Positions 1,096 through 40,803 of a stretch of DNA of 64,000 nucleotides are shown one piece after another. Every line of letters begins with the position of its first letter. Within the stretch, counting starts at the first letter, position 1. The stretch comes from Geranomyces variabilis (Eukaryota > Chytridiomycota > Chytridiomycetes > Spizellomycetales > Powellomycetaceae), in the NCBI GenBank assembly GCA_027603065.1, contig JADGJP010000014.1, forward strand, positions 521,061-585,060, given 5' to 3'. The notes below the pieces were generated by a model, which was not told the DNA's origin, did not search any database, and saw only the letters and a program-made list of their open reading frames with translations. A program made the translations under genes and the position numbers.

Positions 1096-4000
1096 ATGAA
1101 GCAGCGCTTTTCAGCTCTGGATGTTTCGGCGCAGGTCGCTGAGCTTCGACCACGACTCGTCGGGTTGCGCATGCAAAACGTCTACGACATCAACAGCAAA
1201 ACCTACCTATTCAAGTTTTCCCGTCCAGATTTCAAAGAGATGCTGCTCGTTGAGTCTGGCATCCGCTTTCACTCGACGGAGTTTGCACGCGACAAGGGAA
1301 ATTCTCCGTCTCACTTCTGCATGAAGATCCGCAAGCACCTGCGGACACGGCGGCTAACGGCCCTTAATCAGCTCGGCGCTGATAGAGTCGTCGATATGCG
1401 ATTTGGCGAGGGCGAGGCTGCTTATCACTTGATACTGGAATTTTTTGCTTCTGGTAATATCATCCTTACCGACCACGAGTACCGCATCCTTGCGCTCCTT
1501 CGCGTTGTGGAAATCGAGGGCGCCGCCAGCACAAGCGCACCGACCATATCATCCGATCCTGCCGGGGCTGCAGGCGCTGGCGCGCGGAATGAGGGCGATG
1601 CCAAATTCGCCGTTGGAGAGATATACGACGTTACCGCCGCGAGGCCTTTTCAGCCTGTAACGGAAGAGAAAGTGCGAGGGATGCTTGAGAGCGCGAAAGC
1701 GGCCGCGAGTCGAGCCGCCGCCGCAGCAGATCCAGCTGCCGCTGCCGAGGAGCTGTTGGAGGAACCGCGGACCGGTGGGAAGGTGAAGGGTGGAAAGAAA
1801 AAAATCGCATCGAGCAAGAAGTCGGGCAAAGAAAAAAACAAGTTGAAAGAAAACACATTACGCAAAGTGATTCGTGACAAAATGAGCCAAGACTACGGGC
1901 CCACGCTGGTGGATCATTGCATTGCCCGATCCGGACTTGACGTCGGGTCAAAAATCACCGAAGATCTCGATGTCGGCCCAAATTCGACCATCGTTCTGTC
2001 TCTGCTTGAAGCCTTCCGCGAGGGTGATGCAATTGTCCGTTCATGTATTGACTCAGCGCAAAAGGGATGGATAATTTTGCGAGCACTGGACACTACCCAG
2101 AACGGCGCGGCTCCACCACCCCGCCCAGACGCAACCACCGCTCCCGATGGTCGCGAATCAGCTCCGAGGGCGTTTGTCGCCTACGATGAATTTCATCCCT
2201 TTTTGTTCGAACAATTCGTAGCAGACGGCGCTTCTGGTGCGGAACCGCGCAGCGTGGAATTTCCGTCTTTCGATAAATGCGTGGATGAGTTCTATTCCAA
2301 ACTTGAGGCCCAAAAGCTCGAACTTCGAGCGCGGCAAGCCGAAATGCACGCGGTAAAAAAGCTCGAGAGCGTCAAAGCTGGCCACGAGAGCCATGTGCGC
2401 GGGCTTAACGTTCTGCAGGAAGAGAGCGCGAAGACCGCGCAAGCCATCGAGGCAAACTTACTGCTTGTTGACAGCATAATCAACACGTTCCGCAGTTTCA
2501 TTGCGTCAGGCATGGACTGGACGGATCTGGAAGAGCTCGTCAAGGAGGAAAAGAAGAAAGGAAATCCCGTAGCAAGTGTGGTTACGAAGTTGCGATTGGA
2601 TGTTGGAATGGTCACTATTCAGCTTCGTGATACCGACTGGACAGATAGCGACGACGAAGACGATGACGCGGATGAAACGGACTCAGAGGCGGATTCGGTA
2701 AATGAGAGCGATGACGAGGATGGCAAAAAGGCCGCGAAGCCGTCGCCGAAAGCGCCGACGGTTCTGTCTGTTGATCTGGATATTTACATGTCCGCTTTCG
2801 CCAACGCACGGCGCTACTATGATACAAAAAAAATAGCTGCGGTCAAGCAGGATAAGACCCTCCAGGCAGCCGAAAAGGTCATTAAAGCGGCCGAGCGCAA
2901 AATCGAAATTGATCTCAAGTCCACTCAGCAGGTTACGCCGGCGATTACCAAAATGCGCAAGCCATATTGGTTTGAGAAGTTCTTGTGGTTCATATCGAGC
3001 GAAAACTACCTTGTCGTCGGCGGGCGAGATGCGACGCAAAACGAGCTTCTCGTCAAACGGTACTTAAAAAAGGGCGATATCTACGTCCATGCCGACTTGC
3101 ACGGTGCGGCAAGTGTTATCGTCAAAAACATTGCGGATCCGGACGCTCCGCGAACCATCCCGCCAACAACCTTACATCAAGCCGGGACCATGAGCGTTTG
3201 CATGTCGCGTGCATGGGACGCGAAGATTGTTACGAGTGCGTGGTGGGTTGATGATACGCAGGTTAGCAAGACTGCTCCAACCGGAGAGTATCTTACCACC
3301 GGAAGCTTCATGATTCGTGGCAAAAAGAACTGGCTTCCTCCCGTGCAGCTGATATACGGTTTTGCCATACTCTTTAAAGTCGACGAGAGTTGTGCGGCGA
3401 GACATTATTGGGAGAGAAGACCGTGGCGGCGGCAGGAAGAAGACGGCGATCTCGCAGATCCAGCAGATCGCGTTACGGAGAACGCAACACCGAAGGATGC
3501 TGAACAAGACAATGTAAACTTCGATGATATGCACGAAGACGAGATTGCCAACGGCGACGATGACGGCATGGCTGCTCGAAGTGGCGAACATGCTGCAAAC
3601 GAGAACGCCGCGCGAGTCGACGACAGCGAGCGTGCTTTGGAGGCGGAACAAGACGAGGAAACAGAGGATCAGCCTACAGCGGATTCTACTTCTGCGGAGC
3701 ACGTTCTTCCAGAGGGAGATGACAAGTACGCTTACGAAGACGACAATAATGATGAGGGCATGGGAGTCCTCCCAACCGACCCGTCTTTGGCTGCTGCGGC
3801 AGCCAAAAAGCGCCTCACTGCAAGAGAGCGGCGAGATATCCGTAAAGCACGGGTGGTTGGCGGAACAGGTGGATCCGACTCCTCGCTCAGTAAAGACCAA
3901 GACGCAGCTGATAGCTCGGAGCCCTCTGCGGCGCTTGACAAAAGCAAGCGTAAGTCTGCTCAAAATGAGAAAACGCAACAACAACCACCAGCTGTCCGTG

Positions 4001-4927
4001 GCAAACGCGGCAAGGCAAAGAAGATAAAATCCAAGTATGCCGATCAGGACGAAGACGATATGGAGCTGATGTTGTCGCTTCTGGGCAGCCGTAAGGTGCA
4101 GAAGCAGGGACCCCCGGAGAAGCTCGCTCGCGGCGATGTTGCTGGCACTAGAAGTGGAAAGACGCATTCAGGCGACCTCAGCGCCAAAGGGAAAACATTG
4201 GCGACATCCGAATCACCACAAATGCCCCTGAACAAAGCCGCTTCCGAGATACCAACAGCTGGCGCTGCTCAGGCTCCTGTTTCCGAGGGTGTCGAGGGCC
4301 AGGCGATAAGCATTGCGACGGCCACTACAGAAACTTCTCGTCCTCGCCGCGGCTCCACCTCAGCGGAAATCACCCGTCTCCTCGCGGAAGAAAACATTTT
4401 GCAACTCCCTGAAGAAACGGATATGTCGTTTATCGACACCCTCACCGGAATTCCGCATCACACCGATGTGGTTCTCCACGCAGTCGCGGTCTGTGCTCCT
4501 TGGTCCGCGCTCACCAAGTATAAATACAAGGCAAAGCTTGTTCCGGGATCATCGAAAAAGGGCAAGGCCATCAAGACCCTTATAACTGCTTTCTGCGCGG
4601 CCCCGGCCGAGCCCGCGCGCAAACCCCGGCGGGATATAGCTGCGATAATGGATGACGCGGATGTGCTGGAGCAGACTCGCCGCGACGACGCAGCTAAGCG
4701 AGAGCGCGACCTGATCAAACTAATTCCGGATATGGAGGTGAAGTGTCGGCGCGAACAATGTCCTTGTCCTCGCAGTGATAGCATAAAGTATTTACTTCGC
4801 ATTCCACATGATTTTACAGATGGCAAATTCTTTGTTGGGCAAGGTGAAGGTTGTGCTCGGAACCGCGGATCTGGCCAACGCAAAAAGCGCTGGTGGAAAG
4901 AAAGGAGCTAGCAAGGGCGGTCGATGA
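1096..4927 (+). CDS. RQC2: Rqc2/NEMF-family ribosome quality control factor
   Basis: Two exons, 1096..4737 and 4820..4927, about 1249 aa. NFACT-N opens with MKQRFSALDVSAQV and carries an RVVDMRFG segment (Asp and Arg near residues 98-100, where the family has its functional D/R pair). A long coiled-coil region follows at about 400-480. The NFACT-R core at about 620-780 includes YWFEKFLWFISSENYLVVGG and HADLHGA. The C-terminal NFACT-C contains APWSALTKYKYKAKL. The protein binds stalled 60S-peptidyl-tRNA complexes, recruits the Ltn1/Listerin ligase and directs C-terminal tailing. Splicing the short last intron restores a Lys-rich tail and an in-frame TGA. Acidic linkers (about 515-550 and 800-910) and basic linkers make it larger than yeast Tae2. 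Family assignment is firm. Confidence 0.95.
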
Positions 4928-16221: not shown

Positions 16222-19200
16222 ATGGTAAAGCTGTATCTCCGCTACAGGCTCGCGGCAAGCTTTGGGGTCGTGTCCAGCGGCGCCGCAAACTCGCTCTTCG
16301 ACCCTGCGGCAAAGCTCGCCATTACCCCGGCGCTCGAGGACGTCAATATATGGGACGTCCGTAAAGGCACGCTTCTTAACACCTGGCATGAGGATGGAAA
16401 CCGCGCTGAAGTCACATGCATGACGAGAAGTCCCGGAGGTGACGCTGTGGCAGTAGGGTAGGTGACGCTCGGACCGTAAAGAAAAGAATTCACACAATTT
16501 CTTCACTGACTTGACTGTTTTGGTTGTTAACAGCTACGCTGATGGATCGATCCGAATATGGGCCTTGGCTTCGGGAGAAACCGCCATCACCTTCAACGGC
16601 CATCGGTCTGCGGTTACAGCGCTGGCGTACGACCCGGCGGGCTCGCGGCTCGTATCTGGGTCTCGGGATACTGACCTTATTGTTTGGGACATTGTTGCCG
16701 AGACGGGAATGTTCCGGCTCCGCGGGCACAAAGACCAGATTACGGCCGTGCGCTTCCTCACTAAGGGAGGCATGGATCACGTCGTCTCTGGCTCGAAAGA
16801 CACGCTGGTCAAGTTTTGGGATCTTGCTACGCAGCACTGTGTCGAGACGGTCATTGCACATCGTGGAGAGATCTGGGCGCTGGACGTCTCGCCGATCGAC
16901 GAAACCATGATGTTTACGGGTGCAGCGGATGGAGAGGTGCGCGTGTGGAAGATCAACCCGCAGATTCTATCTGCGAAACTTGAGTCAAATGGAGATACTC
17001 TCGACAAAGGCTGGGTCGATTCTGCAGCTGAAACGACTTTGGAGGATGGAACGCCGGTCATGAAGCGCGCCGTGGTCAATTACGGGACATTAGAACGCCA
17101 AAGCAAAGAGCGTGTGGTGACGCTTAAAGTGCACCCAAGTGGGAGATACATTGGAGCACAGGGCGCCGACAGATTGGTTGAGCTGTACAAAGTCCGGACC
17201 GAAGAGGAGCTCAAAAAAAAGGTGCAAAGACTCAAGAAGCGCCAGAACGAAAAGAAGAAGAATCAAAAAGTGCCCACTCCAATGGAGGACGAGACCGACG
17301 AACCAGCTTTATCGGTCGCTGACGAGATTCCTCGCGTGGCACACGTCCGCTGCTCCGCAAAAGTCCGGTCTTTTGATTTCTCTCCCGGCAAGATCGCTGG
17401 AACCTCGAGCGGCCGCGATGGCATCCTACAGCTTTTGTGTGCACTTTCAAATAACTCGGTAGAAGTGCATACCGTCGAGTTTGACAAAAAGGAGGAGGCG
17501 ACAAGGATGGTGTCCAGCATTGATCTTCCTGGCCACCGTTCCGACGTTCGGACTCTTGCGCTAAGCACAGACGATGAGCTACTGGTGACGGGGTCGTCGG
17601 ACCTCGTCAAAATCTGGAACATCTACTCGCGGCAGTGCTTAAAGACTCTTGCGTCAGGATACGCGCTGTGCTGCGAGTTCTTGCCCGGGAACGCGTTCGT
17701 TGTGGTGGGCACGAAAGCGGGGGAGTTGCAACTGTTTGATCTCGCGCGCTCAGCAATGATCGAGAACATAAAGGCGCACGACGGTCCGATTTGGTCGCTC
17801 CAGGTCCGGCCCGACAAAGAGGGACTTACGACTGGCTCACAAGACAAAGACGTGAAATTTTGGGAGCTGGCCTTTGTGGATGACCCCGAATACTCGCGCG
17901 TTGCAAAGCGGCCTTCATTGATCCACACCCGCACGCTAAAGATGTCTGACGATGTGCTTTGCGTTCGCCACTCTCCGGATGGCCGTCTGCTTGCCGTGTC
18001 GCTACTCGACTGCACCGTGAAGATTCTCTACGCGGATACCCTCAAATTTTTCCTCTCCCTGTACGGCCACAAGCTTCCCGTCATGTCGATGGATATTTCA
18101 TCCGATAGTGCACTCATCGCAACCGGTTCATCCGACAAATCTATAAAAATCTGGGGCCTGGATTTCGGCGATTGTCACAAGTCTTTGTTTGCTCACCAGG
18201 ACTCGGTTATGGGCGTTCGTTACGTCTTTGGGACGCATTACCTATTTTCAATCGGAAAAGACCGCCTTGTGAAATATTGGGATACCGACAAATTTGAGCT
18301 GATCATGAAGCTCGAGTCACATCACGGCGAAATCTGGGGTTTGGCCGTTGCAAAGTACGGGAACTTTGTCGTGACCGGAGCGCATGATCGTTCGATCCGC
18401 GTGTGGGAGAAGACGGACGACCAATTTATGCTTGAAGAGGAGCGAGAGCGCGAACAGGAGGAGGTCTACGAGCAAAGCTTGGCAGCGCAGAGTGGGAACG
18501 ACGCGCCGATCGGGTCTGGCGCTGACGTAGACGATTCAATGAAGCAACAACCAACAAACAGCGAAGTTGCGGCTGCAGGCAAAGCAACCTCAGAGACTCT
18601 CAAAGCCGGCGAGCGTATCATTGAAGCCCTTGACGTATGGGAAGAGGAGCGACGAAACTTTGATCAATACGAGCGCATGAAGAAAGCTGCCGCTCCCGGC
18701 GTAGTGGTCCCTACTCCGCCGCGTAGCCCATTTGTTCTTGCTACAGGACACCCGGACCTTTCTCCGGAGGAATTCGTGCTCTTTGTGACTCAGAAGATCA
18801 AGGCCAGCGATATGGAAGAGGCCCTGCTGATACTCCCGTTTGCCAAGGTCGTCGCCTTGCTGAAAAACATTGTTGTGTGGATTGAAAAGGTAGGGCTCAA
18901 GGGTTTTTCGCTGCGCACTGTTAACGAAACCCATCACTCACCCGCATTTCTTTCATAGAAATGGAACTTGTCATTGACGTCCCGCATCCTCTTCATTCTT
19001 CTTCGCATGCATCACCACCAACTTGTCGCCACTGCCACCCTTCGCCCGACGCTCACTCGCATTCGCCGCACACTTCGCGCCGCTCTCCGCGCCGACCGAG
19101 ACCGCGTCGGCTTTAACCTTGCCGGCCTTCGACACATAAAGAATATCATCAATGAAAAGTCTACATCAGACTTTTTCGTTGATGTTGAAGGAGGCTATGC

Positions 19201-20195: not shown

Positions 20196-23100
20196 ATGTC
20201 GTCTGCTTCGTCCGCGCTCAAGCCTGCGGTGCCCAGCGATCTGGCCGCGTCTGGCGTAACAGGGCAGACTACCCTCAAGACGTCCAACCGCAAGAACATC
20301 GGCCAGGACGACACCAGGAGCACCGCCCGCACTATGATCAAGAGCCAGAGTCTAGACGAAAATAGCGACAACATCCCTGGCAAGAGCCCACGGCAGGGCA
20401 AAGGCGGCGGTCACAAAAGCGACGGCGAAAACACAACTGCACTGAGAACGCCGAGAAAACACTTTACCAAACTGCGAAGCACTGGTGAGCTCGCAAAGCA
20501 ACAAAGCAAAAAGGTACAGAAATAGAAGCCGTAAAACTGCCGGCTTTGTATCACTCGATGCTCTTACTCACTTTGGCCCTTCGCGTCACGCATTTTCAAG
20601 AAATGTAACTGGCAAAAGCAAGCTGACGAAAACGACGCCTTCCAGCAAGCGCGTGTCGCACTTAAACGGACTCACAGCGCAGAGGATTTGCAAAAAAAGT
20701 CTTTGAAGCCAAATAGCCCGCCCCATAATGTGAAGCGCTTCCGACCGGCTGGGTGGCAGGGAAGGGACGACATCGCTACCGCACCAGGCATCGCGGCACG
20801 CTCTGCGGGATTGGAGCGAGGGTCCTCCGAGCCAAACTTAGTTGCTGCTGGCCGTCGCCCTCCAAACCCTCGCCACGGACGAACGTCACCAGACCGGGGT
20901 CGAGAATGGCAACCTGACGAAGATTTCAAAGAAAACATTGATCCTCAGCGGTACCCAAGTGCCCTTATCGAGACGCACACTAGGCGGCGTCGGATCCGCA
21001 GGCCAGCCGAAGGCTCTCCCGCAACAGCTGAAAACGCTCTGCTTCGATTGCCGGGATCAGACGGGAGCGTCCGCGTTGAAGTGCAGCCCGCAGCTCCCGT
21101 GGAAGAAGACAGATTCTCCGACGCGGGCGACGATGAGCTATTTGCATCGGTAGATATCGAGGCTTTGTTCGGCAGTGCGGGTGAAAAGCGAGCCCAGACA
21201 GCAACGGCGCCTGCAAGTGCAGCTGCATCCGTTCTGCCTCTTTCCCCTCCCAAAACTATGCGTGCCATCGAGCTGAAGCGATTTGATCGCTTTCTTGTAC
21301 TCGAAGTCTCGCGTTCAGAATATGAACTTGAGCCACCCAGCCCGACGGGAATCCGCAGCCACGAACAGATTCTGCGCTTGCTTGACGAGAGCTCCCAGAA
21401 GGAAAGATGGCTTCATTTACGCGAAGACTGGTGGCAATTGGACGTCGACGTTGGCGATTACCTTCACCTAGTGCATGGGGAGTTTGATTCCACGCACAAC
21501 CGCTGTATAGCAGACAACTCCAAGCCGACCCTCGTAACCTTGCATCCTGACTGCCTGATCTCTGCTACTAGTCTGTCGGAAAGCTTCGGATGCTTGCGCA
21601 AAGCAATCCTACAGGATAGGGTCCGCTCACAAGGCGACATTACCCCGCCGCTGGTCTACGGCAAGATGATGCATTGCCTCCTGCAAACCTGCCTTAAAGC
21701 AAACGATTTCTCCACCGCACGGATTGAACGGGAGATTGAAGGGCTGGTATTGAACGGAATTGAGGATCTACACGCCATTGGCGAGGATGAAGCCATGGCA
21801 AAGGCACATCTTGCTCAGTTCGTGCCGGGCTTGCGGGCTTGGGCAGCCGTATTTGTTGGACCCGCGCCAAAGGTATGGCTTGATATGACAGCAAAACAGC
21901 GCTGGTCCCAGACAGCCCCTTTTGTTGCACACAGTTCGCACAAAGCATTCTTCTTCCCTGTTGCTCACATTTTTCGATACAGCCGGATGCAATAGTTCAC
22001 AAAGACCGCGGCATGGGGACCCGCGCACCTGAAAAGACCACCATGTGTATCAACAAGATACTTGACATTGAGGAAAACATATGGTCTCCGACCTACGGTA
22101 TTAAAGGCATGATTGACGCAAGCGTGCAAGTCCGAGTCCGCCAGGGATCGGAACGCCCCAAGACTCTCGCCGCACCCTTCGAGTTTAAGACAGGCAAAAG
22201 CACATCAGTAGTCGCACACCATGCGCAGACGGTGCTCTACACCCTCATGATGTCCGACCGGTACGACGTGAACGTCTCCTCAGGCTTGCTGTACTACATG
22301 CGCGAGGGCGGGCTTGTCCACGTCCCGGGCATCTCTCACGAAATCAGAGGCTTGATGATTGCGAGAAACGCAATGGCTTGTCACTTGAATAAGAAGACCA
22401 AATTGCCACCTGTCATTCAAAACCCCGACACATGTAAACGGTGCTATGCGCTGGACAAATGTCTTTTATACCACAAGGTAAACTTTGCAGCCTATGCCAG
22501 AAGTTGACTGTGCATCTCTCGGGTGGCTAACGTGTGTGACTCACATTACCCAGGCAGTTGAATTGGGAACGGCGGAGACGAGCGGTGTGGGCCCATTGTT
22601 CGACGAGCGAACGAGTCACCTAACTCCAACCCATCTCCGATTTTTCGAGAAATGGGAGCGACTGATTACTATGGAGGAGGGAGATCTGCACAGCCAGCGA
22701 AAGGAGATCTGGACTCTACTTGGCAGTGAACGCGAGAAGAAAGGTACATGCTTCAGTGGGCTCCAAATCATGCACAAGTCAGCTGCAGGCTCGGGCTCGA
22801 CTATGCAATACCGGTTCAGCAAGGCCGTTGTGACGCCTTCTGAGGGATCCTCGACTGCTGAACCAGACGCGCCGGTATTCTTTACCAGCTCTCAAATTGC
22901 GGTCGGAGATATGGTGGTTGTGTCGACCGAGGCTGGACACTATGCATTGGCCGTGGGATTTGTCTCCGAACTGCAACCGAGCTCGGTGACCATTTCGATG
23001 AACAGGGAACTGCGGGGACCGCCACGTCGGATCGCCGACAATTTCGACGAAGAGAGCAATCAATCGTTCCAGGGAGTGCTTGAGGAGGACAATGAAGAAA

Positions 23101-24927
23101 CTGAGTGCTCGGACAGGACGCTTTACCGAATAGACAAAGATGAGCTTACTTCTGGCATGGGCTTCGTGCGCGCGAATCTTGTTGCTCTTCTGGCTCACGA
23201 AGGCAATGAAAGGCAGCGCCGTCTTATCGTTGACCAGGAACCACCGACCTTCCAACATGATGCTGAAACGTCAGCAGTGGTGTCTGCGGCTATGGATCCC
23301 TCTCTCAATGCGGACCAGCAAAAAGCCGTCGAGATGGTTATGAGCACGCGGGACTATACCTTGATCCTCGGCATGCCAGGAACCGGCAAGACGACCACCA
23401 TCGCGCATATTATTCGCGCGCTTGTCAAATTAGGCAAATCGGTGCTCTTAACATCATACACCCACACGGCTGTCGACAACGTGTTACTCAAACTTCGTGA
23501 GGATGTAGAGCCTGTAGATTTCTTACGGCTGGGCAGCAACTCCAAAATCCATCCGGCAATCGCAAGCTCAAACACGCTTGCGGCCGCGAATCTCGAAACC
23601 GTTGCCCAGCTCGAAAAATTTTACGCTAGCAAGCGGGTTGTGGCCACTACATGCCTTGGACTCGGCCACTCTCTTTTCAGCAAGAGGAGATTCGATTACT
23701 GCATTGTGGACGAGGCGTCGCAGCTCACTCTCCCAGTATGTCTCGGACCGCTCAGGTTCGCGGACGCGTTTGTCCTCGTGGGCGACAACTATCAGCTACC
23801 GCCCTTGGTCCGCAACCTCAACGCAAGGGAGCAAGGGCTTACTTCGTCGCTGTTCAAGATTCTTAGCGAAGCTCACCCTGCCGCCGTCGTGAACTTGGAG
23901 CACCAGTACCGCATGTGCGAAGATATAATGCTGCTGAGTAACGTGCTGGTATACGGCCATAGGCTGCGATGCGGAACTACGGAAGTAGCCAATGCGCGGC
24001 TCGCACTGCCAACAGAGAGCGAAGGGGTGAGCGCATTCCATGCCGCGGACGCTCCTTGTCTTGCGGATTCTGAAGGATGCTGGCTCCGGCGGATGCTGAA
24101 ACCCGAAAATCGAGTTGTTTTCCTCAACACGGACGAAGTGCCTGGACCCGAGATCCGACCTAGTAACGACCGGGTGCAAAACGACGTGGAAGCGATTCTA
24201 GTAGCGCAATGCGTGGAGGCTTTACTCCGATGCGGGGTCGATGAACAAGACATGGGTGTCATCTCCCCATACCGATCACAGCTAAAGACTATCGGTCAGG
24301 CCCTTCGAAACCGCCGCAATGTGGCAATCCAAACGGTTGATAAATTCCAAGGAAGTGACAAGGAATGTGCTATTGTGTCACTCGTGCGCAGTAATCCCAC
24401 CGGGAATGTGAGTTACCACGCCCTTCTAGTCTTGTTGCGTGCCTCGCTCTACCACGCGATGCTGCTAATTCTTACTCATGGCTACCCTACCGTACACAGG
24501 TTGGGGAGCTGCTACGTGACTGGCGTCGCATAAACGTCGCGTTTACGAGAGCAAAGAAAAAGCTGATAATCATCGGCTCTCGACAAACGCTGAACAACAC
24601 CGGCGTATTCCCCGAATTTTTTAAGATAATCGACGAGAAAAAATGGGTAGGTCTCGGCAACACGGAAAAATAATCAAGCGCGGATTTCTTACCTCATATT
24701 CATTAAACTTTGTCATGTAGGAACTTATGCTACCGGCTAACGCACATAGCATTCACGCAATTCCGGTCCCATCTTCTGTTCCGGACCCTTCTACTGAGGA
24801 CCGTTTCACTTCTCGCAGCCAAGAAGTGATGAAGGCGTCTTCACGACAGATCAGGGCCAACCGTATCGCGGCAAAAAGCCCCAACGCTGGCGTTGGACTT
24901 TTAGGACATTTACTCGAAGAAGCTTGA
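20196..24927 (+). CDS. DNA2: DNA2 nuclease/helicase
   Basis: Six exons (20196..20513, 20646..21872, 21983..22477, 22554..24407, 24500..24646, 24721..24927), about 1415 aa. The disordered N-terminus is Ser/Lys-rich. The RecB-like nuclease runs about 250-560, with ATSLSESFGCLRKAILQ, the metal-site segments KGMIDASV and PFEFKTGK, and four Cys for a 4Fe-4S cluster (C of GCLRKA, then CKRCYALDKC). The superfamily-1 helicase has Walker A GMPGTGKTTT, DEASQLTLP, EHQYRMCEDI, TVDKFQGSDKE and VAFTRAKKKL. The enzyme trims long Okazaki flaps and resects double-strand breaks. Start and first join are the weakest points: another donor (GTGAGC at about 20484) exists. The last exon is a short, non-conserved tail. 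Confidence 0.94.
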
Positions 24928-31120: not shown

Positions 31121-33716
31121 ATGCAGTTGTTGTCGCCTCAGTCGCGGCTACACGCTTTCGCGGCCCTTTTACTGGCCCTTCCCGCTATTACGCGGGCCCA
31201 GCAGCCAACTTCACCCCCCGCAGCTGCGTCCTCCGCTTGCCAGCCATCGACGCTCGTTTCGCAAGCATGCGGCGTGGTGCGCGACTTGGATCTGGCCACC
31301 TCGGTTTCTACGGCGGACGCCGCCGCGGCAGATGCTCAGCTTCAGACAATCGTCGCCGGGCTCAAGCCATTGCAAAACATTGCTCCGGCTTGCTACGGCT
31401 ACCTTCGCCAAATCTACTGCGGTAGCGTTTACCCTGGATGCAGGAATGGCATCACCGTCTATCCTTGCGCTACTGCCTGCCAGTTTGCCACCGATTCCTG
31501 CTTGACCATTCTGACGGCGCTGGGCAAGGAGCACATGTTGCCTGACTGCGCACAAGGCATTGCTCCCTCTGGCAATACTACTCGCGTGCCTTATCCAACC
31601 ACCCAATGTCTTGGCTCCGCCGCCCCAGGCGCCAAGATTGCCGTTCTTGACTCGCAGGCAACCACCATGGCCACGGCACTGCCGGCGACCGTTTATTCGG
31701 ACGGCGTCGATACTCAAGTCATCATTCTCATGTCGCTTTGTGAGTCCTTGCTGAGAGACGCCTCTCAACTTTCGCCGTGGTTCGCGTATTCCTGCTTGCT
31801 CGCCGTGCTAACCTGGCGTCTATTCCTTGCGCAGATTTTGTTTCGCTTTTTGGGTTTATCGATCTTATCGTTGCATTCTCCCGCATGCGCCGCTCCTATT
31901 CTGTCGTCTCGTGGGCTTGCGTCTGGATTTTGACGGACTGTGTGATTCTGTGGGGACAGATTTCCAACGGCTGGCAAATCCAACGGTGGTTTGGGTCACC
32001 ATCGTGTCGCACTCAGGCATTGATGATGACATACCTCAATCAGGCTTCATACATCTGGCCGTTCTTTTTCACCTTCGACGTGTGGTACGCCGTCGTCCGC
32101 AAACGAATGCGCGGCACAAGTGAGCGCGCGCGCTTCATGTGGAACGCTCCATTTGCCTTCCTGCTGCCGGTCGTTCCTACGGTCGTGCTGGCTTTGAAGG
32201 CAAACCCCGTCGGATTAAACCCTCCTGCAAGTCTGCAGCCAGGATTTGGTCCTCATGTCTGTAAGTTACATGCATTTGCTTTGCCTTATTGCGGCCAAGT
32301 CTGCTAGCCAGTTTGAAAACTAACCAGAAGCAATTCCAAAGTGTTTTGCTCGTTCCAATTTCCAGTCAACGGATGGGCAATGTCGACCCTCCCTTTCGTC
32401 ATTGTTTTTGCAATTTCGGCAGGATTTTTTGGCGGGCACGCGGCGTACCACTTGTATCTACAACGAGCAGCTTTCGACTCGACGTCCGCGTCCGGCAAGG
32501 GAAGCAGCTCTAATACTCGATCCAACTCCGGCAAGGGCTCTCAGCGAGCCCAGAGCCGGCTTTCGCTCGTCTTGTTTGCTCGAGTCTTGTCTTTGACCGC
32601 AATCTTTTTGGCAGTGTGCGTTGTGGCCAATTACCAACAAATGCGCGCTGTCTTCCGTGGCACCTACGATCCATCAGACAGCAATCCCGGAATCAGGGAG
32701 TATACGATTGCAGCCATTGGTATCGTAGTTTGGTAAGCGAACGCGTTATGGCTATTCTGAAAGAAAATCGTTTCAAATAATAACCGATCCCTCGCAGGCT
32801 CGTTCTCTGCACAAGCTCGGCTACATGGAGCAAAACCCTACCTGGATCTTTGTTTGCTGCAACATTCGGGACCTCGAGCGGGTCGCGTAATGATCCTCAC
32901 ACTCGCAGCGCGCGGTCGCAAACCAAGAGTCAATTGGACGAGGACATGATAGAGCTTCGCTCCTCGCCGACGCAATACTCTGCACATCGTTCGGGCACTA
33001 AAGTGTCGGCCATTTCCGGCCCATTTAGCGTGTCCAGCGGACACACTTTGGATGCTCCGCAAATGGCGGTCACCCGCCAGAACACGGCTGGCCCGTACGA
33101 CGGTAGTGCACCCTTGCCGGACACATATCGCTCCACTGCAGCAAACGACGATTACTACGCGAGTTTATATACCGCTGCGGCTGACACTTACTCGGATCAC
33201 TGGGCCACCCGCAAAGGCACAGACCGTAGCGATCGGTCGTTAGTTGACGACGGGTTCGAAGGAGCGGTTTTGCCTCACCGTACCAACACCAATGGCTCAG
33301 GCGTGCGGCCTCCGCGCCGCAAGAAGTCGGCCACATCGCAACGGTCTTATGAGCCCGAAGCTGGGCACTCGCACTTTGCGGAGGAAATTCCCGCCGTCCC
33401 GCCGCTGTCTATTAGCACTACGAACATTGGCAGCGGGTACTCGCAACGCTACAACGTTCAGCGATCGCCCGTGTCCCCAACGCACAGGTACCGCGATGAC
33501 GCAGAGCCGTCTCCGGTCGCCAGCATAGCAGATTCTAGGTACGCCTCTCGGTCGCGCTCCCAGTCGCGCGGACGTAGAGATGTTGACGCCACGCTTAGAC
33601 AGCGGGGCGAGTCTCCCGTCCGTCGCGAGAGAAGCCAGCGGCGATATTACGACGTAAACGCCGCCGAGTCACAGCCCGCCGATTACGATGCTGACGACTG
33701 GTCCAGATCAAGATAG
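31121..33716 (+). CDS. Frizzled/Smoothened-like seven-transmembrane receptor
   Basis: Four exons (31121..31739, 31835..32260, 32366..32732, about 32798..33716), about 776 aa. A signal peptide (about 1-26, AFAALLLALPAITRA) is followed by a Cys-rich domain at about 40-180. It has ten Cys spaced like an FZ domain: SACQPS, QACGVV, APACYGYLRQIYC, VYPGC, YPCATACQFATDSC, LPDC. Seven hydrophobic spans then follow (from VIILMSLYFVSLFGFIDLIV to TIAAIGIVVWLVLC); a span-3 segment YLNQASYIWPFFFTFDVWYA fits the Frizzled fold. The cytoplasmic tail of about 290 aa is Ser/Arg-rich (RSRSQSRGRRDVD near the end) and disordered. After span 7, SKTLPGS resembles the KTxxxW Dishevelled-binding motif but lacks its Trp. 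Fungi have no known Wnt, so ligand and partner are unknown. Confidence 0.87.
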
Positions 33717-33997: not shown

Positions 33998-36900
33998 ATG
34001 GCTGACTTGTGGGCTTCGTCTGGGGACCCCTTTGCCTCGCCCGGGACCCCGTCCGCCGGTAATACGCGGAAGACATCTCGCTCGATGCAACTGTCGACTG
34101 AGTGGCGCTACCGTTTTCTTTCATCTCAGAGACTCCTGGCGGATTCCCGTTGTCTGCAGACGAAACCGCAGTATACGCTCACCTATACAAACTTGCTGAT
34201 CCGACTGGCAAACTCACCGTGCAGCCACAAGAAGCGGTAGCCTTTCTCTCGAAGTCGAGGCTCCCGCAAAATGTCCTGAGTGAGGTTTGTTGGAGAATCT
34301 ATTTCCCTACTACTACTCCTGACCACATGGCTGAAATATGTGGTTTCGACTTGCGATACTAGATTTGGCAGCAGGCGGACTCGGATCGCAAGGGATACTT
34401 GACGCAGGCAGACTTTTGGAAGAGTTTGAAAATGATCGCTTTGGCTCAGAGTGGCAAGTCGCCAAATCTAGCTTCTCTAGGAACCTGTATGTTAAACGCG
34501 GTTTGCAGGTTTGTGTGCGTCCGTCCACTTGACAGCTCACTGCCGGCGTATCGATCATGTTAGCCACTCCAATCCCGGTTTTTGAGGGCGTTGCCGTCCC
34601 GCATCGCACAGCACCTGTTACTTCGCACTTGACTGGTGGCAATCAGTATGCTCCCGCCGTGGCAATGTCTCCTCAGCGGACCGGGCCGCTCTCCACCCAT
34701 AACACAGGAGGCAGCGGCTTGGGATCAACTCGGGTGGCCAGTCACAATACCGGTGGAACTCAGGTTTTAGCTCACACTACTGGAGGTCCTGGTCGGTATG
34801 ACATCACATCTGAAGAGAGGGAGCGATTCAGCGCGGCATTTGCAAGCTGTGGGCCTGTGGACGGGGCGGTATCGGGTGTGTGATAGGTTCTGTGAGTTGG
34901 TTTTTGTCGGTACCCCCTTAACCATGTTTTTTGCATTAGGCGATGCAGCGCGAGATCTATTCATGCGATCAACGTTGCCTGTCGACCAGCTTGGCAAAAT
35001 ATGGTAAGCGCAAAACAACCAGCTTTCTCGATCGTGCGCTGATAGGAGTTCAACCCGTCCCCAACCGCAGGTCTTTGGTCGATACCAATGCTGCTGGCAG
35101 ATTGACCCTCCCACAGTTCACGGTTGCCATGTATCTCATCACTAAGCTTCGCCAGGGTGTTCTTTCGACCATCCCAGCGGCCGTCCCTGCAGAACTCTGG
35201 TTGGCTGTGAACCGTTCCGCTCGGTCGTCCTCCGAATCAATTTCAGAACCGGCCCCGTCTGCAGAATCTCCACTTCAGGGCCTGCCTCCCCCACCATCCG
35301 CGCGACCTTTGAATCGTATGTCGACCATGCTCCCCGGCGCCGCGTCGCCTAGGATGGACCGCCGGCGTACTATGATTGGCAGTCCGGGCTTTAGCGTAAA
35401 TATCGACTGGGCCGTCACCGCAGAGGAGAAAAGTCAGTTTGATCAATATTTCGACGCAATCGACGTCCAGAAGAAATCATTCGTCACTGGACAAGAAAGC
35501 TATGATTTGTTCCTGAAAGCGAAGCTTCCGCAGAGCGAGCTCGCAAAAATCTGGGATCTCGCTGATATAGAAAAGCGAGGCAACCTGAGAAAGGAAGAGT
35601 TTGCTGTAGCGATGCACCTGATTCGGCTACGAATGGCTGGCGGTACTCTTCCTCAGACGTTGCCAGCCGATCTTGTTCCGCCCTCGCTGCGAGGGGCGCA
35701 ACAAACTTCACTTGGCCCGGGCCTGTCGATGCAACCAACACGCACGAGTACTACTGATCTAGACCTCATGGGCGACTTCACTTCTTCGCAATCGCCGCAG
35801 CCCACCGAAACGGCAGCACTTTCTAAGCCCGCGTTTGAAGCTCCGCGGTCACTTTCGTTTTCGAACATTCCTTCGGCGCACGAAGTAGCCGACTTTCAAA
35901 ATCGCGAAAGAGATCTTACCGCGCGAAAGCAAGATCTGCAACAGGTCGAACAGCAGATCGAGCTGCTGCAACCTACGGTTGAGGAGCTCCGTCAGAAACG
36001 GGCAGAGATCGATGCAGAGTACAAGTCCGCGACAGAGAAGCGCAACGAAATGGCGATGAAACTTAGCCAGTTGCGTGGTGTGTACGAGACCGAATCTCAA
36101 ATCACCAGCGAGCTCGAGCAAGAGCTGCGGAGGGAGCAGCAAATGGTGCAAATTGGCGCCCAAGAACTGCAGCAGGCTCAGCAAACGGTTGCAATGCTCA
36201 CTCAGGAAAAAGAAAACCTTGAGCAGACTTTGCAGCAAACGCTTAAATACAACGAAGACGCAAAGCGCATCATTGCCGAAACCACGGACGCTGCTGCACC
36301 TCTTAGAATCGAACTAGAAAAACTGCGAGCAGAGCTCCACAAGCAGGTCCAGCATCGTCAAGTTAATGACCAGTTACTGGAGGCCGCTCAGCGTGAGTAT
36401 CAACAGGTGCACGGCGACGTTCAGATCGAAACTGCAAATTTGGAGCGTGAGAAATCCAGAAACTTGCACGTCACGCAGCAAATTGCGGTGCAGTCCAGCA
36501 TCAACGAACGAGAGCGCCTTCGCTTGCAAAGTGTAATTGCCGAAAAAGAGGCGGAGGCTGTCAAGGCGCAGGCAGCTGCCGCCATGCCAACTGAAGTAAA
36601 GACAGCCGATGCAAAGGGAGACATTTACGCTGCCTTTTCGGCTGCAGGAACGACGGCTTCGCCGACAACTGAAGTTCCTCCTGCAATTCAAACCCGGCAA
36701 CCCTCCGTAGCCAACGGCCTCGCATCACCTTCCCCAGTAACCCCAGCAGCCGGGACCCCGACTAAGAAACCACCGCCGCGACCGCCCGCCGCTAAGAAGC
36801 CGGAGCGTGGACAGCCACTGACTCCGCTACATGGGGCCGAAATTCCTGGCGCTGGCCACATGACGCCTGAGAGCACTAAGACCGTGCAGACCCCGCTGCA

Positions 36901-38488
36901 AAAGAATCTCAGCACCCCCAAGCTGTCAAGTTCCCCAGCCCCAGTCACTGCGATGACCCCCGCTTCGACTGACGCCTCCCCCGAAAAGGCAAAGCCATCC
37001 AGTCCGGCCAAGGTCTCTGAAAAGGACGACTTCGAAGCTCTTTTCGAGTCCAACAAGCCCACTACCAAGAAATCAATTGACAACCTAGCTGCTGTTGCAA
37101 ACGCCTTGCCAGCGAGCCCGGCATCGGCCCTCCGAGCTGCGAGCCCGCTTCCCTCAGCCGCGTCGCCTCTCACGCCTCCAGCGCAAGCCACGCCTACCAC
37201 GTCTTCTCCGGGAGGTAAAACAAGTAAAGGTGGCTTTTCGCTGGGCTTTGAACCCCGCAAGGACTTTGGCGAAGGCGGCGGTAAACGCAGCGGCTCAAGT
37301 TCTGCAAGTGTGCGAAGTCTGCCGCTACTTGACAAACAAGAAGCGACAAAGACTGAAACGCCTCTTTCCGCGCCCGTTGCAAACTCCGCCCAACAGCTTA
37401 ATGTCGCCAACGACGAGGACACTTTTTCTTTCAGCACTGCCCCCGGCTCTCTTTCGGCGCTGGCGGACACCACAGTGTCTACGGCCGATTTGGCTGCAGA
37501 TTCAGCGATTGCAGGCAACGCCGGACCAGCCAGCCACTTGGATCGAGAATTCGGCGTCGGCCATGCGGATCAAGCTGCGGGCTTCAGCAATCCCGATTTT
37601 GATGCCGATTTCGCTAGTGTGTTTCCGCAAGCCACTCCCGCACCACCAGGAAGTGTGTCGTCTGATGGTCAGCGGCCGCCGCCCATTGAGCCCGTCCCAG
37701 ACTCGCGTCCAGTCCCGAAACGCGCCGACACGGCCCTTTCCGAGGTGGACCTTGAAGCAGAATTTAAAGACGCATTTGCAGATGCGCAGGTTGCCGCTCA
37801 AGGTTCTCCGAGCAAACTTCCTGCGGAATTTGATGACGCCGCATTTGCGGCCGGGCGTTTTGACGACGATGCATTCAGCTTTGACTCGTCGTTCGGAAAC
37901 TTTGCCAGCCCAGCCAGAGCCGGTGCAGCGAATGCTACACCAGTGAAACCGGGATTTGAGGCCGATTTTGCCTCGGCGTTCTCTGGAGGGTCCGATCCGT
38001 TCGCGGCTTCTGGATTTTCGTTTGGTGAACCACTTGCAAAGTCATCGGATTCTGCGAGCTCAAACGCCGCTCAAATGAGCGCGGCCGATATGGACGCATT
38101 GTTTGGAGGCGGCGGGAGCACTGGCAGCGCTACACTGGGCACTGTTAACGAAACTAGCAGTGCGTTTGATGATGCATTTGCCGCGGACGCTTTCACTACA
38201 GCATTTGGCGATGCGTCCATCAAGAAGCCTGCTGCAAATGAGGACGTAAGACCGCCGCCCCCAGCTCTTCCAAAGCGCAAGGAAACGACCGACGACGCTG
38301 AAGAAGTGAAGCAAATCGTGGCCCTGGGATTTACGAAAGAACAGGCCGTCAATGCTTTAGACCTGTATGACGGGGACAGTTTTGAGTTACAAGCGAATAT
38401 GCACAATGCTGATCATGAATCTTTCTGATTTTTTAGGAACGGGTTTGACGTAGCACAAGCTACTAATTATCTGCTCGATGCAAAATGA
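33998..38488 (+). CDS. EDE1: Ede1/EPS15-like endocytic scaffold with EH domains and UBA
   Basis: Multi-exon, about 1300 aa. First exons are 33998..34058 and 34130..34284, with the next starting at 34363. Three EH domains are visible: (1) AHLYKLADPTGKLTVQPQEA and SRLPQNVLSEIW; (2) DLFMRSTLPVDQLGKIWSLV with TLPQFTVAMYLI; (3) DQYFDAIDVQKKSFVTG, LPQSELAKIWDLAD and EFAVAMHLIRLRMAGG. A coiled coil of about 230 residues follows, then a Pro/Ser/Thr-rich region and DxF-type motifs (DPFAASGF, DADFASVF). The last 60 residues are a UBA domain completed by splicing 38364 to 38437 (LGFTKEQAVNAL joined to NGFDVAQATNYLLD). It is an early-arriving endocytic adaptor binding NPF motifs and ubiquitin. The join near 34490-34540 is not resolved. 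Confidence 0.92.
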
Positions 38489-38551: not shown

Positions 38552-40803
38552 CTATCTGAATCCTAGCTTATTGAATCTACTCCTTAGCGCCTCATCGCTT
38601 ACATCGTCCCCTTTTGACCCTTTTGAACTCTTGCGTGAACTCTGCGGTCTGCTTTTCTTTGTCTTTCCAGCTGGCGCCGCAGGCTCCAGCTCACTGCTTA
38701 TCCTCTCGACTTGCTCAGCCGACATCCATCGTCGTGTCACGAGCCAATGCATGGGGCCGATGCACCCATTAGACGGGTTTCCGGCGGACCCAACCTCGCG
38801 ATCCCAATCCTCCTCGCCCTGTTTGCATGCCTCTAGCATTCTCACCGCATCTCCCGCGTCTAGCTGTCGCAGCAGCGCATCAAGAGCAGGCACGCACGGC
38901 TTTGGTAAACCGTCGAGGAAATCTCCGCGATACTTTCGCCAACCTACGCCCTGTCCGTCGTCGTCCGCCGGCCGAGGGATGTCGGAGTATATGCTGCGAT
39001 ATTTCTTACTCACCAGTTTCCATGTCGCTTTCAGCCCTGCAATAGGAGGCGACGCCAGCGCTGAGCAGACGGCATGAGCGGCGTGGAGATCACGGCGGAC
39101 AACCAAAGCTTGCGCGACAAGGATCCAGCGGACGATCGCGCTCGCGCGGTCCACGGGCATGTTGCAGTCCACTACGGTCGCCTGGACCACACGGTGCAAG
39201 AAAAACGCAAAATCTTGCACGCGCTTTATCGTGTCGGGCACAGTTGCACCGCTGGACACGGCATGAGTGAGCAAATCAGGCGGTGTAAGGGCGCGAAACA
39301 TGTCGACGTCAAAGCAGAGTATTCCGCCCGCGAGCTCGGTGGGTCCAACCTGGGGCAGCGTCTTGCGGTCCCATTCATTTATGAGTCCGCTTAGTTGCGC
39401 AAGCTTGCGCTTTGCTAGGCCGGTCGTCTCAACTAGGCGACGAACTTGGGAGAGGACGCCGGCGGTTGCTGCACCGGCGCGGCCAGTGTGTTGCGCCTGT
39501 TCGAGTTGTTGAAGCTGAGCACCGGCTGCGTTATACTGCTCGGTTATGTATCGGTGCTGATGGATAAGCGGAGACGCGGGTATTATGGGAAGATAGTCAG
39601 TGGGTGTGTATTGGCGAGGTGTGCCAGGAAGATTAGGTATGCTGCTTTGGTTGATAAGCGACACGGCATGTTCTGGCTGACTACAGAGCACACGATACGG
39701 AGGTGGGGCTCGCGGTGATGAGGAATCCGGTAATGGTAGTGGCGGCGTCTCTCTGGGCTGTTCTGGTGGCGTTGTAGATGGACATGACGAAGGCTTTGGA
39801 AGATCTGGCGGTGGAGCCTTCGCACCGCGCTTCGGCACAGAGGGGAAGTGCCAAATTAGTGACTCGCCAGACGTTCGTGGATTCCGCGGCCCGGGCACCT
39901 CGTGGTGTTGCTGCACGTCATTCGATATTGATGTAGGTCGGGGCTCGGGCGACTCCGCTCGACTGGTCTCCAGAAGCCAGGATGATGAAAGGGGACTCAG
40001 TGCCTGCACAGGCAAGGCACACGACCGACTGTTAGAGCTTGCCGCAAGTCATACTTTCATCTTTGACCCCGTACCTTATAGTCTTCCTCCAAGGATGCAA
40101 CACTAATCGGTCGGAGGGACGAAGACCCTGATAGGCCAGAGTTTCGCAACGAGTTCCACGTGCCACTCCGTTTGAGCGAGCGGATAGTATGTGCACGGGA
40201 GAGACGATGCTCGCGAAAGTCGACCGCCTTTGGCGGCTTTCCCTGCGGTAAAACTAGCGGCGAGCTTTCCGGCTTAAAAGCCGGCGAACCTCCTGCTTTG
40301 TAGCTACCACTCGCTGCATTTGGTGATGACTGATCTTCCAGGACTGTTGCCAGCGGATCAGAGTCATGTGTCGCGACAGCCCCGGTGGACCCCAGGTCCA
40401 TCTCCTCATCCTCGTCACCGTCACTCTCCTCGTCGCTGTCATGAAACGGCTCCAAATCGTCGATGGACACGGTGCCAAACATGATATCCTCCACCTCGGT
40501 TAGACACAGATGCGCGAGGCCGAATAATCGTTCGATATCGTCGGGAATGACAGCGACGGAGTTTTTGAAACGTTTGGGGGCAACATGAGTTGCTACAGCA
40601 CTCGTCTCTGTAGCGTTCGGCTGCTCCTCTGGTGCAAAAACCGTGTCGGAGGAGAAATGAGACGAGATTAGAGCGAGGGCGGCAAGATACGCATCAAAGG
40701 CGGCTTTGAGATCGAGTTGGCCAAGGTGCTTGTCAGCGCTAGCGATTGCAACGTCGATGGCGGACATTGATAGGCCGCCGGTAGGGCGAGGACGGAGCGC
40801 CAT
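38552..40803 (-). CDS. RasGEF-domain protein with MIT-like N-terminus
   Basis: Two exons (40803..40075, 40003..38552), about 726 aa. The N-terminal helix ASADKHLGQLDLKAAFDAYL resembles the first helix of MIT domains (tentative), followed by an acidic stretch (residues about 120-140, Asp/Glu runs) and a Ser/Pro-rich linker of about 200. At about 480-620 lies a Cdc25-type RasGEF catalytic region: DVDMFRALTPPDLLTHAVSS, AIVRWILVAQALVVRRDLHA, VCSALASPPIAGLKATWKLV. No REM domain was seen. The Lys/Ser-rich tail ends at 38552. RasGEFs load Ras-like GTPases with GTP; MIT domains bind ESCRT-III tails. If both calls hold, the protein may act on a GTPase at endosomes (inference). An ATG at 40830 in the same frame is an alternative start. 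Confidence 0.78.

Follow-up and report, generated by a model that had tools for sequence, protein, structure and literature searches.

Does the gene at positions 31121-33716 encode a complete Frizzled receptor, and, if only part of the protein is of the Frizzled kind, which part is it? The gene lies in a window (the whole stretch of 64,000 nucleotides that was analysed, C6:521061-585060) of a genome of 23.8 Mb in 91 contigs. A first-pass annotation had proposed a full Frizzled-type receptor at this place, with a relic of the Dishevelled-binding motif, and had presented such a receptor as a novelty in a fungus. The gene itself is borne out: it runs on the + strand from an ATG at 31121 to a stop codon ending at 33716, and its four exons encode a predicted protein of 784 aa, laid out as a signal peptide, a ten-cysteine ectodomain, seven hydrophobic spans (the 7TM part) and a Ser/Arg-rich tail.

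The presumed fungal host is supported by six matches to Chitin_synth_1N in the genome, and the presence of radial-spoke genes makes a flagellum probable; judging from this gene content, we are probably dealing with a zoosporic, chytrid-like fungus. The novelty of the receptor was overstated, since fungal Frizzled-like receptors have been in print since 2012, when Krishnan et al. described a pair of Frizzleds from Spizellomyces punctatus (PMC3251606). In 2025 Liu et al. reported 187 Frizzled-class sequences, mostly outside the Ascomycota and Basidiomycota (PMC12842992), and a GPCR survey of the same year describes the Fz domain in fungal and amoebozoan Frizzled homologs (PMC12716839). What is unusual about the present gene is that its Frizzled-type cysteine-rich domain (FZ-CRD) is attached to a 7TM of a family unrecognised by Pfam.

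Exon 1 (31121..31739) encodes the putative signal peptide (residues 1-26, 31121..31198), the CRD (residues 40-163, 31238..31609), a linker and the first part of TM1. The signal peptide is recognised by its hydrophobic stretch, LHAFAALLLALPAI, its cleavage site being guessed by eye. Following intron 1 (95 nt, 31740..31834), exon 2 (31835..32260) supplies the rest of TM1 together with TM2 (31900-31965), TM3 (32011-32097) and TM4 (32140-32196). Intron 2 (81 nt, 32261..32341) leads to exon 3 (32342..32732), which encodes the end of ECL2 with Cys 351, TM5 (32374-32460), ICL3, TM6 (32560-32634) and the start of TM7. Beyond intron 3 (65 nt, 32733..32797), exon 4 (32798..33716) encodes the end of TM7, a tail of 295 residues (16% Ser, 12% Arg) and the stop. 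All of these features are on the + strand, and all three introns are GT-AG. The acceptor of intron 2 was picked by homology to C45, whose 7TM is the closest to that of the window protein (discussed below): position 32342 was preferred over 32366 because the extra residues, LFCSFQFP, align to IYCSYIYP in C45, and because a search with the C45 protein matches from window position 32335 (C6:553395). The start at 32366 has the better acceptor consensus and may be the true one, as the joints were predicted without RNA.

The seven spans were assigned by hydropathy. The would-be inner loops hold 3, 6 and 6 Lys plus Arg residues and the outer loops 2, 1 and 3, a distribution consistent with an external N-terminus. 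The signal peptide, the seven spans with an external N-terminus and the long Ser/Arg tail of the first-pass annotation are all supported, the topology by hydropathy and charge counts. Exon joints predicted without RNA do leave room for a gene-model artefact, in which the gene of a secreted CRD protein has been mistakenly merged with an independent 7TM gene, but we regard such a fusion as highly improbable. Exon 1 contains the complete CRD as well as the beginning of TM1, where DTQVIILMSL of the window protein aligns to DTNAEILLAC of C45, and the GT-AG intron that follows restores an alignment with C45 that is continuous across the joint. The CRD and the 7TM part belong to a single gene.

Beyond the receptor, a gene for an EH-domain protein (approximately 33999-38428, +) starts some 280 bases past the stop codon, and a RasGEF gene (38552-40015, -) lies beyond it. 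The other neighbours noted in the window are housekeeping genes, all on the + strand, at 1096-4911, 16511-18958 and 20688-24533, encoding NFACT family, WDR3-like and Dna2-like proteins.

We inspected the ten cysteines ahead of span 1, which stand at residues 40, 50, 91, 100, 107, 116, 120, 127, 143 and 163. Their gaps, 9-40-8-6-8-3-6-15-19, satisfy the formula given for FZ-CRDs, CnCnCX8CX6CnCX3CX6,7CnCnC (PMC6938638). Across all six reading frames of the window, a ten-cysteine pattern of this type is found a single time; 50,000 shuffled versions of the ectodomain never produced it, and its six-cysteine core arose in 3 of 50,000. Pfam Fz matches the trimmed ectodomain at 28.3 bits (2.7e-6), exon 1 at 27.6 bits and the first full-length model (776 aa) at 24.5 bits, every construct of the window protein missing the curated cut-off of 32.1 bits. 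In a six-frame scan of the genome the window gene scores 28.8 bits; C34, another receptor gene, is also under the cut-off, and a third, C8, reaches it at 34. The similarity exceeds mere cysteine spacing, since among nine ectodomain shuffles with the cysteines held fixed six gave no match and three matched at 15.4-15.6 bits, compared with 28.3 for the real sequence. The formula and this margin bear out the ten-cysteine FZ-like domain that had been proposed.

Searches of the PDB agree. With phmmer, exon 1 ranks Smoothened CRDs first (best E 0.0063), and Smoothened or sizzled accounts for 16 of the 18 hits with E up to 10. A profile of three CRDs, two of its three sequences being the paralogs, reaches Smoothened at 2.2e-5 and Frizzled-3 at 9.1e-5, with all 51 hits listed up to E 1 being Smoothened, Frizzled or Frizzled-related. 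All ten cysteines are invariant across the three paralogs. AlphaFold models of the ectodomain, built from three-sequence alignments, had pLDDT of 45 and 47, too poor for a fold call either way, and Foldseek with these models found nothing below E 1.7 and 4.8. Because a connection between FZ domains and the cysteine-rich regions of fungal Mid1 has been drawn (Pei and Grishin 2012, cited in PMC3945613), the ectodomain might be thought a Mid1-type domain and not an FZ-CRD proper; we consider this scarcely credible, as the Pfam and PDB matches are to Fz, Smoothened and Frizzled, and as the nearest CRD in the genome, that of C34, sits on a protein with a Frizzled 7TM. Judged by its sequence, the ectodomain belongs to the FZ cysteine-rich domains.

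The 7TM part is another matter. No match to Pfam Frizzled (PF01534) was obtained at E up to 10, and an NCBIfam scan was likewise negative. A match to 7tm_2 varied from E 0.036 to 0.55 depending on trimming and was treated as noise. The one clear relative is C45 (C45:470715-471926, +), which aligns to the window 7TM at 127.5 bits, compared with a maximum of 24.3 among 500 segment shuffles, and with 91 of 302 aligned residues identical. Each is the other's only strong paralog in our genome searches, the counts from which are lower bounds. The two proteins share a cysteine in TM3 and one in ECL2, but C45 starts only 37 residues ahead of its TM1 and has neither signal peptide nor CRD. It matches no Pfam family. 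When the two 7TM sequences were combined in a profile and compared with the PDB, no GPCR was found, the best of the seven hits being a cytochrome oxidase subunit (0.017). Viral contigs were searched for further relatives, and none was found. A receptor fragment at C29:197159-197545 (+) matches 7tm_2 above the cut-off (26.3 bits); a comparison of the window 7TM with this receptor stayed at the level of shuffles (29 of 100).

Three other genes in the genome are of Frizzled type. C8 (C8:182281-182484, -) and C34 (C34:127960-128931, +) bear both PF01392 and PF01534 on a protein scan, whereas C78 (C78:36534-36734, +) is a receptor lacking the CRD, encoded by one open frame of 726 aa, that keeps the CCxPCP linker. 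A six-frame genome search with PF01534 found only C34 and C78. C8 has an intron within its 7TM and was recognised once spliced; for this reason the genome counts for PF01534 are lower bounds. C8 and C34 share the ten-cysteine CRD with the window protein, the spacing in C34 (9-38-8-6-8-3-6-15-17) being nearly that of the window CRD, but differ from it in having a 7TM recognised by PF01534 and a CxxxCCxxCP linker. The linker cysteine cluster common to all three Frizzled-type paralogs is absent from the window protein, as is any cysteine in ECL3, where cysteine is present in C8 and C34. Hence the full Frizzled architecture claimed for the gene stands for the FZ-type ectodomain, the signal peptide and the seven spans, and is not supported for the 7TM part, which has neither a Frizzled match nor the linker cysteines.

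Could the 7TM nevertheless be that of a strongly diverged class F receptor, drifted beyond recognition, with C45 a copy that has lost the CRD, as has happened repeatedly in Dictyostelium? The CRD of the window protein is of the ordinary Frizzled kind, and CRD-less Frizzled-type receptors are known from amoebae (PMC10445921) and occur here in C78. In a profile-profile comparison by hhalign, the 7TM also matches the Frizzled-type profile at E 0.012 (probability 3.7%), in register from TM3 to TM5. Shuffled profiles matched as well in 8 of 100 trials of a rerun, and the window 7TM scores 5.7 bits against the three-paralog Frizzled-type profile, with 16 of 500 shuffles as good. Because of the register and these frequencies a remote kinship to class F is possible. 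Pairwise, however, the scores are near noise: 7.9 bits against C34 (9 of 500 shuffles equally good), -1.2 against C78 (221 of 500) and -5.2 against C8 (467 of 500), and C45 obtains -2.3 bits against the three-paralog profile (375 of 500). As positive controls, the 7TMs of C8, C34 and C78 find each other at 129-178 bits (none of 300 shuffles as good in each case), and their joint profile finds Frizzled-4 at 7.6e-11. Since these three genes are so easily recognised, and the window protein lacks the Pfam match and the cysteines in the linker and ECL3, we think divergence from class F an unlikely origin, though one to be kept in view. The window 7TM is not detectably class F, a verdict that rests on the absence of detectable similarity.

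A Wnt-type receptor acting through a Dishevelled-like protein has even less to recommend it. The motif KTXXXW of Frizzleds has been implicated in recruiting Dishevelled (PMC4834752), and SKTLPGS (residues 490-496, 32829..32849, +), proposed earlier as its degenerate relic, is indeed present directly after span 7. It is without the Trp, however, and is not conserved: the aligned stretch in C45 is QASTPYV, with no KT. The corresponding stretches in C34 (GTLIAEW) and C8 (TALIRDW) have the Trp and no KT, and the exact motif is reported missing from most Dictyostelium members (PMC10445921). Nothing in these sequences indicates that the KT of SKTLPGS is a preserved relic. Searches of the genome for DIX and WLS gave no match, but neither had a positive control that gave signal, so absence is not proven. 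The best genome match to Wnt, from a search likewise lacking a working control, had E 0.917 and an inner stop and was discarded; 16 matches to Arm repeats were found, among which beta-catenin was not singled out. The fungal Wnt-like proteins described in print are catalytic Min-Wnts and not animal-type Wnts (PMC12419801). We give a Wnt and Dishevelled role for this receptor very little chance.

The explanation we favour, with a probability of roughly 0.6, is that a single gene combines an FZ-type CRD with a 7TM that makes up a small family with C45 and cannot be recognised as class F, giving a seven-pass surface receptor. This would most likely have come about by domain shuffling, a CRD like those of the genome's ordinary Frizzled-type genes being placed before a C45-like 7TM. 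In the Smoothened CRD the groove accommodates oxysterol, and in the Frizzled-8 CRD it accommodates the acyl chain of Wnt (PMC3809587); by analogy, the window CRD would hold, in a similar groove, an extracellular cue that is hydrophobic or carries a lipid. The 7TM could then relay the signal to one of the several G-alpha proteins of the genome (20 matches, at least 7 loci), and the Ser/Arg-rich tail may have a regulatory part as a site of phosphorylation or desensitisation. Such signalling would not need a Wnt/Dishevelled pathway, and none was found. The protein's likely job is to sense a cue that is hydrophobic or lipidated and to signal by way of G proteins, not of Wnt and Dishevelled; that a swimming-spore fungus might use it to sense surfaces, hosts or partners is a guess.

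A wider reading, which we offer tentatively and at somewhat less than even odds, is that of a receptor swap: the FZ-CRD would have moved onto a fungal 7TM family outside the described GPCR classes, and fungi would then sense FZ-type ligands through two or more membrane domains that are unrelated to each other, and would do so independently of Wnt and Dishevelled. Should the CRD indeed function on both kinds of 7TM within a single genome, it would be a sensor that can be moved about and is not tied to Frizzled, and this, if true, would bear on the origin of Frizzled and Smoothened before Wnt and Hedgehog. One fungus offers the set for comparison: two Frizzleds with a CRD and one without, plus the other 7TM type both with a CRD and without one.

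Among the closest known systems is fungal GPCR class XVII, Frizzled/Fz (PF01534/PF01392), which includes S. punctatus SPPG_01720 and SPPG_06172 (PMC12842992, PMC3251606) and for which, according to a 2026 review, there are no functional data in print (PMC13308352). Liu et al. assign a protein to the class when it has seven spans and matches Frizzled or Fz in Pfam at p < 1e-5; the Fz match of the window protein is 4.2e-5 at full length and 4.7e-6 for exon 1 alone. Class XVII receptors resemble the window protein in the zoosporic fungal host, the Fz-type ectodomain and the seven spans, but the window 7TM has no PF01534 match and lacks the linker cysteine cluster of its paralogs. The closest solved relatives of the CRD are those of Smoothened and Frizzled (PDB 5kzv, 8q7o), although these are animal receptors with a class F 7TM and known ligands. 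In the literature searched, as listings and passages, no fungal receptor combining an FZ-CRD with a 7TM outside class F turned up. Such a combination likely has a precedent elsewhere, since the N-terminal domains listed for adhesion GPCRs of Salpingoeca and Capsaspora include CRD_FZ (PMC3251606). Those holozoan receptors have many-domain N-termini with a GPS, whereas the window protein carries a lone CRD ahead of an unrecognised 7TM.
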